Shown piece after piece: positions 9,489 to 35,177 of a stretch of DNA of 52,696 bases. Numbering within the stretch: position 1 is the first letter of the stretch; the number at the start of each line of letters is the position of its first letter. The notes beneath the pieces are model-generated. The model worked only from the letters and a program-made list of their open reading frames with translations, did no database searches and had not been told where the DNA came from. The position numbers were made by a program, and so were the translations under genes. Source of the DNA: Candidatus Saccharimonadota bacterium (GTDB lineage Bacteria; Patescibacteriota; Saccharimonadia; Saccharimonadales; UBA4665); contig JAICLK010000002.1 of the NCBI GenBank assembly GCA_025927415.1, forward strand, positions 1 through 52,696, given 5' to 3'.

Positions 9489-9570
9489 GCCTACTAGCTT
9501 ACCACAAGAACCCCTGCCCTTGCTGGTCGCAGAATTGTGAGCGGCGTTTAGGATTGGGTTCGTTCCGCGG

Positions 9571-9583
9571 TATAATTGAGGCA
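9571..9583 (+). promoter_or_regulatory. -10 box of a probable leaderless transcript (RNA methyltransferase)
   Basis: TATAAT at 9571-9576 is followed by TGAGGCA and then the ATG at 9584. Initiation about 7 nt after the -10 would fall at the start codon. The lysS start has the same arrangement (TATAAT, 7 nt ending GGCA, ATG). Confidence 0.65.
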
Positions 9584-10771
9584 ATGCCCGAGCAATCACT
9601 TCTTATTTTGGGCCGGCAGCCGGCGCTGGGACTGGCCGAGCTGGAAAGTTTATTCGGAGCCAGCGCCGTGCAGGCAATCGGCACGGACGCTGCCCTGCTT
9701 TCACGTGCGCCGAGTTCGGTACACTTTGACCGACTTGGCGGCTCGGTAAAGCTCTGCCGCGTTTTGACAGTGTTCGACACCATCAAATGGCCAGAGGTTC
9801 AAAAGCACGTTGAGCAAACCATGCCGCGCTCTTTGGCAAGCTCCGATAGCAAGCTACAACTTGGCCTCAGTGCGTATGGTTTGAGCTTTAAGCCGCAGCA
9901 GCTCACGGCTGCCGGATTGGAATTGAAGAAGATTTTACGCAAAGGTGGCCGCTCGGTCCGGCTCGTTCCAAACCAAGAGGCGGCACTCAATAGTGCGCAG
10001 GTGTTACACAACCGCTTAACTGGCGAGAACGGCTGCGAAATTGTGCTCGTTCGTGATGGCGCAAAAACCATCTGTGCCCAAACTGTAGCCGAACAAGACA
10101 TTGAAAGCTACACCCTCCGCGACCGCAGCCGGCCAAAGCGCGACGCGCGCGTGGGCATGCTGCCGCCGAAGCTTGCGCAGATTATCATCAACCTCGCCGC
10201 TAGTGAGCAAAATCCAACCGGCAACTTCACCGTGCTCGACCCATTCTGTGGCACTGGCGTGCTGTTGCAAGAGGCGCTCCTCATGGGCTTCAGCGCCTAC
10301 GGCACCGACCTCGAGCCACGCATGATTAATTACACCGGCGAAAACCTCGATTGGCTCGACAGCAATTTCCAACTTGGCGACGTGCAAGTTCGGTTCGAAG
10401 ATGGCGACGCCACCACCCACCTCTGGGAGCCACAGCCCAGCGCCGTAGCGTGCGAAACCTATCTCGGCCAGCCCTACATTGCCCAACCACCAGTCGATAA
10501 GCTCGCCACCAACGTCCGCACCTGCAATGTCATTCTCGAAAAATTCCTGCGTAACATCGGCAAGCAACTCAAACCTGGCACACGTCTGTGCCTCGCCGTG
10601 CCCGCCTGGCAAATTTCGCCGCAAAAATTTAAGCATGTACCTCTTATTGACCGACTGAACGATTTGGGGTATAATCGTACCAGATTTGAGCACATTCGGG
10701 ATGACCAGCTTCTCTACTACCGGGAAGACCAAATCGTCGCCCGAGAGTTACTCGTATTAACAAAGCAATAA
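9584..10771 (+). CDS. THUMP/Trm-G10-like RNA methyltransferase
   Basis: This 395-aa protein starts at ATG 9584 (MPEQSLLILGRQPALG). The N-terminal half (1-170) has the opening and texture of the THUMP-containing Trm11/Trm-G10 family. RSRPKRDARVGMLPPKLAQI at 181-200 is the linker typical of these enzymes, and DPFCGTGVLLQEALLMG at 219-235 is the SAM-binding motif I. The family probably makes N2-methylguanosine in tRNA. The usual (D/N)PPY catalytic motif is not seen; ACETYLGQP occupies that place (289-297). Its chemistry or substrate may therefore differ. It is divergent from the flippase-like gene and appears to have a leaderless start. Confidence 0.8.
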   Translation: MPEQSLLILGRQPALGLAELESLFGASAVQAIGTDAALLSRAPSSVHFDRLGGSVKLCRVLTVFDTIKWPEVQKHVEQTMPRSLASSDSKLQLGLSAYGLSFKPQQLTAAGLELKKILRKGGRSVRLVPNQEAALNSAQVLHNRLTGENGCEIVLVRDGAKTICAQTVAEQDIESYTLRDRSRPKRDARVGMLPPKLAQIIINLAASEQNPTGNFTVLDPFCGTGVLLQEALLMGFSAYGTDLEPRMINYTGENLDWLDSNFQLGDVQVRFEDGDATTHLWEPQPSAVACETYLGQPYIAQPPVDKLATNVRTCNVILEKFLRNIGKQLKPGTRLCLAVPAWQISPQKFKHVPLIDRLNDLGYNRTRFEHIRDDQLLYYREDQIVARELLVLTKQ

Positions 10772-10791: not shown

Positions 10792-10908
10792 GCCTGTTGT
10801 AGGTGGATGCAGTGCAAGGCGCCGCCGAAGCGCGGACGGAAGCGTACATTATGTACGCTGGAGGAGCACTGGAGACGGCAACGCAGCAATGCGCCGCCTA
10901 CGACAGGC
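10792..10908. repeat. Large palindromic element, copy A
   Basis: A 15-bp outer stem pairs 10792-10806 (GCCTGTTGTAGGTGG) with 10894-10908 (CCGCCTACGACAGGC); the only mismatches are two G.U-type pairs. Inside, CAGTGC (10810-10815) can pair with GCACTG (10866-10871), and AGCGTAC/GTACGCT (10841-10847 / 10853-10859) forms a central hairpin. The flanks ATGCAGTG and CAATGCGCCG recur in copy B at 35054-35177. There is no U-tract, so it is not a simple terminator. Confidence 0.75.
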
Positions 10909-10924: not shown

Positions 10925-11197
10925 ATGTCACACGTAAAAGCTGGCGGTACAGCCAAAAACATCCACGATAGCCCGGGACAACGTCTCGGTGTTAAGCTAT
11001 ATGGTGGCCAAAAAGTTAAGGTTGGTCAGGTTATCGTACGCCAGGTTGGCATGACCAAGCGCGCCGGCAAAGGCACCACACTCAGCCGCAACTTCACCAT
11101 TCACGCCGCCAAAGATGGCGTGGTGAAATTCGGCCAGCGCAAGGTTCGCCTGTTCAGCGGCAAATCAGTTCGCCGCACCGAAGTCACCGTTGAATAA
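10925..11197 (+). CDS. rpmA: 50S ribosomal protein L27
   Basis: This 90-aa ribosomal protein has an N-terminus that reaches the peptidyl transferase centre. AGGTAKNIHDSPGQRLGVKLYGGQKV is the family signature and GQVIVRQ continues it. No cleavable N-terminal extension of the Firmicutes type is present. AAGGAG at 10912-10917 lies 7 nt before the ATG, so this gene uses a conventional ribosome-binding site. No rplU precedes it; its upstream neighbour is the RNA methyltransferase, separated by the palindromic element. A strong terminator follows. Confidence 0.97.
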   Translation: MSHVKAGGTAKNIHDSPGQRLGVKLYGGQKVKVGQVIVRQVGMTKRAGKGTTLSRNFTIHAAKDGVVKFGQRKVRLFSGKSVRRTEVTVE

Positions 11198-33477: not shown

Positions 33478-35016
33478 TTATGAAGCTTTGGGCGCGTCCA
33501 ACTTGAGTTCGGGATATATCACCTTGGTACCTTCGTCTATGTCTTGGCGAAGCTGTGGAAATGGCACGCCTTCGCGAGCTGTTACGCCTTCCAGCAACCA
33601 GAACAAACGCTCGCTATGGCCATAACCGCAGGCGGGCGGCATGCCGTACTCCAGCATTTCGACAAAGTCGATGTCGAGCATCATAGCTTCGGCGTCGCCA
33701 GCATTACGCATCTCTTGCTGCTCTACAAAACGGCCAAGCTGATCCACTGGATCGTTCAGCTCGCTGTAAGCTTTGCTTGCCTCGGTACCACCAAGTAACA
33801 GGTTGAATTGCTCGGTGAGTCGATGGTCATTCGGCTGCAGTTTTGCTAGCGGCTGCAAAAAGGTTGGAATATCTACGAGAAATGCCGGACCGGCGATTTC
33901 CACGCGAATTTTCTTCCAAAGCTTGTCGATGACACGCGAACGGTTGTCGATCTTCTCTACCTCGCCGCCAATTTTCTTGAGCTGCTCAACCGCATCTTCT
34001 AGGGTGCAATCGAACACATCCAGGCCATAGCGCTCGCGGATAACGTCCACGAAACTCACGCGCGGCCAGTTTTCGCCGTCGTTGCCAAAGTCCACCGCTT
34101 GCCCATTCGCCAGCTTGAACTGGCGCGTGCCCCACGTTTTGTCGACGGTAGCGCGCACCATTTCTTGCGTAAATTGCATGCCTTGTTCCCAGTCGGCGTA
34201 TGCCCAGTACCATTCCATTGCCACGTGCTCGGGCAAATGCTCGTCGGAGTAATTTTCGTTTCGGAAGCGCGGACCGATGTCGAAAACTTTTTCGTAACCG
34301 GCGCCGATGAGTCGCTTCAGCGGCAGCTCGTGACTAATACGCAGGTAAAAATCCTGATCCAGCGCGTCCATGTGCGTGACAAACGGGTTGGCGTCGGCAC
34401 CGCCGGTAGTGTGTTCGAGCACCGGAATGTTGATTTCAATAAATCCGTGGTCGATGAGATACTGACGCGTGGCTTGCCAAAAGTTGCTGCGGCGAATAAA
34501 ACGCTCGTACACCTCGCGGTTGACGTTCATGTCGATGTAACGGCGACGCAGACGCTCTTCTTTGTTGGTGAAACTTTCATGCGTCGTCGGCATGGGCCGC
34601 AGACTCTTCGTGAGCAAACGCAGACGCTCCACGCCCACTGAAATTTCGCCGGTTTGGGTTTTAATAACTTTGCCGTGTACTTCAACAAAATCCCCACTGT
34701 CGAGGAGTGGCAATTGCTCCATGCCGAGCTGGCTGTTAGCAGCGTCCAACCCTGCAACTTCGCCCTCCCGGAAAAACAACTGCACAGTGCCACTGGCATC
34801 ACGGATAGATACAAACGCAATTTTGCCAAAGCGGCGAATATTCATGATACGCCCAACCACGCTCACCGCTTGATTTTCGAGTTCACCAAATTTTTCGGTA
34901 ACGTCAGCCAACATATGACTGCGCTCGACATGTGCCGGATATGGGTCAACACCTAGCTTTTTCAGGTCTTCCAGTTTGCGAACGCGCTCGTTGCGATAGT
35001 CTTTTAGTGTTGCCAT
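33478..35016 (-). CDS. lysS: Lysyl-tRNA synthetase, class II
   Basis: This 512-aa enzyme starts at ATG 35016 (MATLKDYRNERV). The N-terminal anticodon-binding OB fold spans about 55-150 (VSVVGRIMNIRRFGKIAFVSIRD). Class II motif 1 lies near FIEINIPVLEHTTGGADANPF, motif 2 is IGPRFRNENYSDEHLPE and motif 3 is CGYGHSERLFWLLEG. TGTTATAAT (extended -10) ends 7 nt before the ATG; the longer upstream frame runs through the palindromic element and is not coding. The mRNA is probably leaderless. Confidence 0.96.
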   Translation of the reverse strand: MATLKDYRNERVRKLEDLKKLGVDPYPAHVERSHMLADVTEKFGELENQAVSVVGRIMNIRRFGKIAFVSIRDASGTVQLFFREGEVAGLDAANSQLGMEQLPLLDSGDFVEVHGKVIKTQTGEISVGVERLRLLTKSLRPMPTTHESFTNKEERLRRRYIDMNVNREVYERFIRRSNFWQATRQYLIDHGFIEINIPVLEHTTGGADANPFVTHMDALDQDFYLRISHELPLKRLIGAGYEKVFDIGPRFRNENYSDEHLPEHVAMEWYWAYADWEQGMQFTQEMVRATVDKTWGTRQFKLANGQAVDFGNDGENWPRVSFVDVIRERYGLDVFDCTLEDAVEQLKKIGGEVEKIDNRSRVIDKLWKKIRVEIAGPAFLVDIPTFLQPLAKLQPNDHRLTEQFNLLLGGTEASKAYSELNDPVDQLGRFVEQQEMRNAGDAEAMMLDIDFVEMLEYGMPPACGYGHSERLFWLLEGVTAREGVPFPQLRQDIDEGTKVIYPELKLDAPKAS

Positions 35017-35053: not shown

Positions 35054-35177
35054 GACAACCTCAGCAGAATGATGCAGTGTGGTTGAAATGCGAGCACCGT
35101 AAAGGAGCCGTACTTACGGTACGGAGCGTGCGGAGCGCAGCAGTTCGGCCGCAATGCGCCGTTCTGCTGAGGTTGTC
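35054..35177. repeat. Large palindromic element, copy B
   Basis: A 17-bp outer stem pairs 35054-35070 (GACAACCTCAGCAGAAT) with 35161-35177; all positions pair, the innermost as T.G. Inside, TGTGGTTGAA (35078-35087) can pair with TTCGGCCGCA (35144-35153), and CCGTAC/GTACGG (35108-35113 / 35119-35124) forms the central hairpin. GATGCAGTG and GCAATGCGCCG match copy A, but the outer stem sequence is unrelated. It abuts the greA stop codon exactly. Relative to the local genes its orientation is opposite to copy A. Confidence 0.75.

Follow-up and report, generated by a model that had tools for sequence, protein, structure and literature searches.

A short palindromic element in Candidatus Saccharimonadota, probably mobile and non-autonomous, with a core shape conserved across phyla

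Palindromes at the rpmA and greA loci

The window (the whole stretch of 52,696 nucleotides analysed here, from contig JAICLK010000002.1 of a Candidatus Saccharimonadota bacterium) contains two palindromes, copies A and B, located next to rpmA and greA, respectively. The features of the two loci are:

9554..10771 (+), putative RNA methyltransferase-like gene upstream of copy A, with a weak Methyltransf_31 match and an uncertain start codon
10792..10806 (+), left outer arm of copy A, GCCTGTTGTAGGTGG, variable and covarying with the right arm
10807..10893 (+), conserved core of copy A, matched by covariance model R1 with 97.8 bits (E 6.6e-22 in the window)
10894..10908 (+), right outer arm of copy A, CCGCCTACGACAGGC
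10925..11197 (+), rpmA (ribosomal protein L27), downstream of copy A
33478..35016 (-), lysS, downstream of copy B on the minus strand; the ORF call reaches 35154 from an earlier TTG
35054..35071 (+), left outer arm of copy B, GACAACCTCAGCAGAATG
35072..35159 (+), core of copy B, of the ATGCAGTGTGGTTGAAATGCGAGCACCGTAA.. subfamily and close kin of another copy in the same genome (C47:26390)
35160..35177 (+), right outer arm of copy B, CGTTCTGCTGAGGTTGTC, abutting the greA stop codon
35178..35639 (-), greA, whose stop codon adjoins copy B

A sequence-only reading had placed the two copies at 10792-10908 and 35054-35177. Both are there, and both are highly significant hairpins: the RNA fold of A has an energy of -66.6 kcal/mol (z -4.8) and that of B -78.9 kcal/mol (z -9.9), with 0/200 dinucleotide shuffles equalling either. 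They share the two core words reported in that reading, ATGCAGTG at 10807-10814 (A) and 35072-35079 (B), and GCAATGCGCCG at 10886-10896 (A) and 35151-35161 (B). Taken singly, each word occurs in the window at a frequency near chance; as the spaced pair ATGCAGTG..GCAATGCGCCG, they occur only twice in the genome sequence scanned, in A and B, and not at all in a reversed control. The core of A shows an A bulge, UGCA/UGCG, a G.A mismatch, UGC/GCA, an AAGG/AACGC internal loop, an inner stem and a GTAC apical hairpin. The outer stems of A and B are, as had been noticed, unrelated in sequence and each self-complementary. The reported difference in orientation also holds, A being sense to its flanking genes and B antisense, as does the absence of a U-tract 3' of both copies. 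We considered intrinsic terminators, in the sense of a GC hairpin followed by a U-tract, and rejected them at A and B on this last ground.

Distribution across genomes

A covariance model, R1, built from 29 sequences, identified seven copies in the window's own genome (G000, 76% complete) and gave matches in 23/93 genomes of the family and in 25/380 genomes sampled across the phylum (E<=1e-6). Further copies and structural conservation, on which the sequence-only reading had staked its claim, were thus both found by covariance search of the genome and its relatives. A weak second match (E about 0.003) lies on contig C18 of the same genome, at L158:3107-3196 (-), between two metabolic genes and ~1 kb from a strong copy.

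An exact-pattern scan of contigs, with one genome per species, returned at least 119 stretches. After filtering for arm complementarity and folding, 53 remained among the matches listed, four of which were set aside as chance. The filtered matches (at least ~50 loci) span several phyla. Among the matches listed, the Beta- and Gammaproteobacteria are represented by Nitrosomonadales, Gallionella, Polaromonas, Methylotenera, Undibacterium, Curvibacter, Rhodoferax and Gammaproteobacteria, and other groups by Chloroflexi, Clostridiales, Ruminococcaceae, Gemmatimonadales, Uhrbacteria, Lloydbacteria and Saccharibacteria. The arms of the Undibacterium copies may bear a likeness to IS5, which carries no weight in the interpretation below. 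Plasmids and phages searched with the Polaromonas copy gave no match, viral contigs searched with two strict patterns gave none, and a literature search for palindromic elements in Patescibacteria found none.

Core shape and covariation

The outermost part of the element is a variable stem. Moving inward, this is followed by a bulged A, UGCA/UGCG (including a U.G pair), the G.A mismatch, UGC/GCA, an internal loop (nAGG/ACGnn) and the inner stem, which has GA-rich loops; the hairpin at the apex is often GTAC..GTAC. Across 99 Patescibacteria copies, 93.4% of pair cells hold standard pairs, and double (compensatory) changes are present in 27/27 modelled pairs. The covariation score of this alignment was 0.667, compared to 0.186 when shuffled and 0.05-0.11 when slid; an independent MAFFT alignment gave 0.471 compared to 0.137, which is the cleaner figure because the 99-copy alignment was fitted to the model. 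Covariation, together with covariance-model matches across genomes, refutes chance palindromes as an explanation. Rfam returned no match at the element, at gathering and relaxed thresholds.

It had been proposed from A and B that covariation implies selection on structure. Such selection is plausible but not a necessary conclusion: template-directed correction of the arms of a palindrome would likewise yield paired changes.

Occupied and empty sites

The site upstream of rpmA is occupied in seven genomes (G000, G084, G028, G020, G019, G016 and G230), the last of which is a member of another family. It is empty, with short spacers, in G085 and G087, both genus-mates of G084, and the element is missing at rpmA from most of the family genomes inspected. 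At greA, only G000 and G084 are occupied among the genomes inspected, and their outer arms differ; about 25 other genomes have a short spacer or another gene at this site and no element. A pre-existing hairpin was considered as the target, and none was seen in the empty greA sites.

Other sites show the same pattern. XthA (exonuclease III) of G018 has 43 extra residues that are missing from its genus-mates, and IleRS of G028 has 37 at a site that is empty in G027, G029, G016, G064 and G020. UvrD carries inserts at two points, and a gene occupied at one is empty at the other. The insert in RarA of G319 is missing from three relatives, and the genus-mate G151 has a clean empty site where G193 carries an intergenic copy. 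Since matching sites stand empty in relatives, the copies are insertions. No consistent target duplication was present at the sites compared in Patescibacteria. In IleRS of G084 (L189), the position of the G028 element carries an unrelated repetitive insert (..IQDDSGSVST..), marking a tolerant loop.

Several further sites are occupied in different genera, always in antisense: trxB-glutaredoxin (L133, L138, L144, L145 and L166), downstream of ssb (L137 and L140), obg (L163, L172 and L174) and pnp-rpsO (L142 and L173). These could be either old shared copies or the product of repeated targeting. As sites common to different genera, together with rpmA and greA, they suggest that much of the set is ancient and has been inherited vertically; a purely active mobile element would not be expected to look like this, and the point counts against a mobile-element reading.

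Placement and coding inserts

Eleven of 98 copies lie inside ORFs, all 11 of them in sense. Genes with in-frame copies include UvrD, Der, IleRS, XthA and RarA; in essential genes the inserts add about 35-60 residues and leave the reading frame unbroken. Eight coding inserts in six genes (UvrD three times) use one frame and share one peptide consensus, xVQGAGExRTEPYxxYGEGAxExATxQxA, and these eight peptides had no NCBIfam match at E<=10. About half of all copies also have open antisense frames, none of which is used, so stop codons alone do not explain the orientation. Intergenic copies are mostly antisense: the right-hand neighbour is antisense in 55 copies, and its stop codon mostly lies 2-8 nt from the right arm. 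These placement counts depend on imperfect automatic ORF calls, contain some spurious sense cases and include orthologous copies, which are not independent.

Outer arms

Within the window's own genome the outer stem has no conserved sequence, and the arms stay complementary even where they have changed at the same locus. The greA and rpmA sites indicate that divergence in place is another route to arms that are unrelated yet self-complementary. Copy B and C47:26390 have near-identical cores and unrelated outer arms.

One explanation of the arms, which is compatible with a mobile element and concerns only where the arms come from, is that host DNA supplies them when the element inserts. The core would join a target end, and snap-back synthesis would invert the adjacent target, giving each copy its own stem. 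The insert in G018 XthA fits this. The right arm of this copy belongs to the native gene (KPVLYC), and the left arm, which is inserted, repeats it in inverted form with 15/19 matches, a level reached by 2/2000 shuffles. The palindrome reaches 3-6 nt into the native flank in IleRS, in RarA and at one G193 site, and the common core and differing arms of B and C47 point the same way. Another G193 site, however, has both arms new compared to the empty site, the arms vary rather little among the copies of G193 and G196, and later template-switch correction would look alike. We therefore hold an origin of the arms at insertion to be possible, if unlikely; as a source of the arms, either snap-back copying or later template-switch correction is a serious but unproven candidate.

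MITE-like copies in Nitrosomonadales

A Nitrosomonadales MAG (G093) contains at least 104 copies with the same core. They are about 143 bp long and end in TCTTACTGTGTCACA and its complement, which form TIRs. The repeat breaks the assembly of this MAG, many of whose contigs stop within the element (e.g. L010, L042, L073 and L096), so copy numbers are lower bounds. Perfect 4-bp target duplications (TTAG, CTAA, ATAA, GTAA, TTCA and TTAA) were present in 9/11 copies with both flanks, one of the 11 being a Gallionella copy and the rest from G093. In this Nitrosomonadales genome, the element is a true MITE. The combination of TIRs and target-site duplication was found only in G093 and the Gallionella copy; the window's lineage showed no conserved TIRs with target duplication, and the outer arms of its own copies are unrelated. 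No partner IS with the same TIR turned up in G093, where the search led only to MITE variants, contig ends and a solo palindrome. The solo palindrome, TCTTACTGTGTCACAGTAAGA at L453:1660 on contig C183, is flanked by CTCT repeats. It resembles the MITE minus the hairpin interior and is perhaps an excision footprint.

Interpretation

We conclude that A and B probably represent a mobile, non-autonomous palindromic element, short at about 100-130 bp and present at least seven times in their own genome, which has kept the same core shape in different phyla. A non-autonomous mobile palindrome was among the possibilities raised from the sequence alone, and it gains support from the multiple copies, the empty sites in relatives and the target duplications in Nitrosomonadales.

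The sequence-only reading had also offered a structured intercistronic RNA. In this case the element would act in cis for the benefit of the host, as a leader or intercistronic hairpin (e.g. at rpmA) or as a hairpin in the 3'-UTR with a part in protecting or processing mRNA, and its mobility would be incidental. The copy upstream of rpmA agrees with part of this, as it is kept with compensatory changes in seven genomes, including one of another family (G230): in the outer and adjoining stem, both partners have changed in 11/22 pairs (0/500 shuffles). The tight placement 2-8 nt after stop codons agrees as well. However, the element is missing at rpmA from most family genomes inspected and at greA from about 25, its orientation to the transcript at rpmA is opposite to that at most other sites, and the same core is found inside coding sequences and in the at least 104 MITE copies of another phylum. 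We consider a host function in cis unlikely as the general explanation.

The REP/REPIN-type repeat that this reading had also suggested, which would be moved by a RAYT (Y1) transposase, is very improbable. Like REPs and REPINs, the element is a multi-copy, intergenic palindrome with mismatches, but it is far longer, its landmarks differ, and it has copies inside ORFs. Y1/RAYT is missing from most carriers, including near-complete genomes (Y1_Tnp is absent from G000, G064, G084, G085, G087, G088, G007, G071, G072 and G079), and the presence of RAYT/Y1 showed no correlation with carriage of the element. Ordinary terminators or chance palindromes can practically be dismissed: the position behind stop codons would suit terminators, but there is no U-tract, the core is conserved across phyla with E values down to 1e-21, and copies lie inside ORFs and upstream of rpmA.

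How might such a mobile element work? In A and B, the element strand folds better than its complement, both as RNA and as DNA. Helix cells of the element strand hold about 123 G.U compared to 39 A.C, sums taken without column 11, which is misaligned, and without the invariant U.G pair. In intergenic copies the figures are 97 and 31, even though these copies are mostly antisense to mRNA. The excess has a column sign test p of 0.12 and comes from a model alignment that allows G.U; with the strand folding, it is only suggestive in favouring a folded single-stranded intermediate over a role in host mRNA. We propose that the element may move as a folded single strand (the ATGCAGTG strand), which would be recognised by its shape by an enzyme supplied in trans. 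Sense insertions would survive in ORFs because one reading frame of the ATGCAGTG strand is usually tolerated, and antisense insertions would survive just behind stop codons. After insertion, the arms may be kept paired by compensatory change or by template-directed palindrome correction. Among the candidates sought, namely Y1/RAYT in carriers and a partner IS in G093, no mobilising enzyme was identified. A more specific version, in which only the folded core moves across phyla as a shape-recognised single strand, the outer stem is a snap-back inverted copy of the target, and inserts are polarised (sense in genes, antisense behind stops), is speculative and we rate it as improbable.

Comparison with known palindromic elements

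Rickettsia palindromic elements (RPEs), which are 105-146 bp long, occupy intergenic regions and also lie in frame within protein genes (PMC2229807, PMC10969869). The present element, too, is a palindrome with a long hairpin and is inserted in frame in conserved protein genes. It shares with RPEs and with the Wolbachia palindromic elements a length of 100-150 bp, a long stem-loop, and intergenic as well as in-frame copies with an open frame. This likeness, drawn from descriptions of the RPE families, is one of form and in-frame insertion. Unlike these elements, ours occurs in different phyla and over a wide range. In contrast to RPEs, its outer arms differ from copy to copy within one genome while the core is conserved, it is sense in ORFs and antisense behind stops, and its inserted peptides lack an NCBIfam match.

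Like MITEs, the Nitrosomonadales copies have TIRs, a length of about 143 bp and 4-bp target duplications. Classical MITEs share TIRs and may differ in the interior, whereas the present element shares the interior and has unrelated ends, and no full-length partner IS was found for it in G093. ERIC, RUP and Correia/NEMIS are intergenic palindromic repeats of a similar kind, each described from a narrow group of organisms, whereas the present element spans phyla. Our best reading is that it probably represents a new cross-phylum family, or variant, of protein-compatible palindromic mobile elements, RPE-like in its working.

Palindromic elements that code for protein have been described from only a few lineages. 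The present element occurs in several phyla and in hundreds of copies, with well-defined empty sites and, in one lineage, target duplications, so that the mobiliser and the choice of target become testable. It also indicates that the reduced genomes of Patescibacteria tolerate selfish inserts of 35-60 residues in core enzymes.

At L158 (G000:C18), L143, L170, L286 and L287, mostly coding copies, a second short hairpin lies directly 3' of the element. Its stem is variable and its loop strands resemble GGGTG / AGCAG, and the insert at these sites may be a composite.
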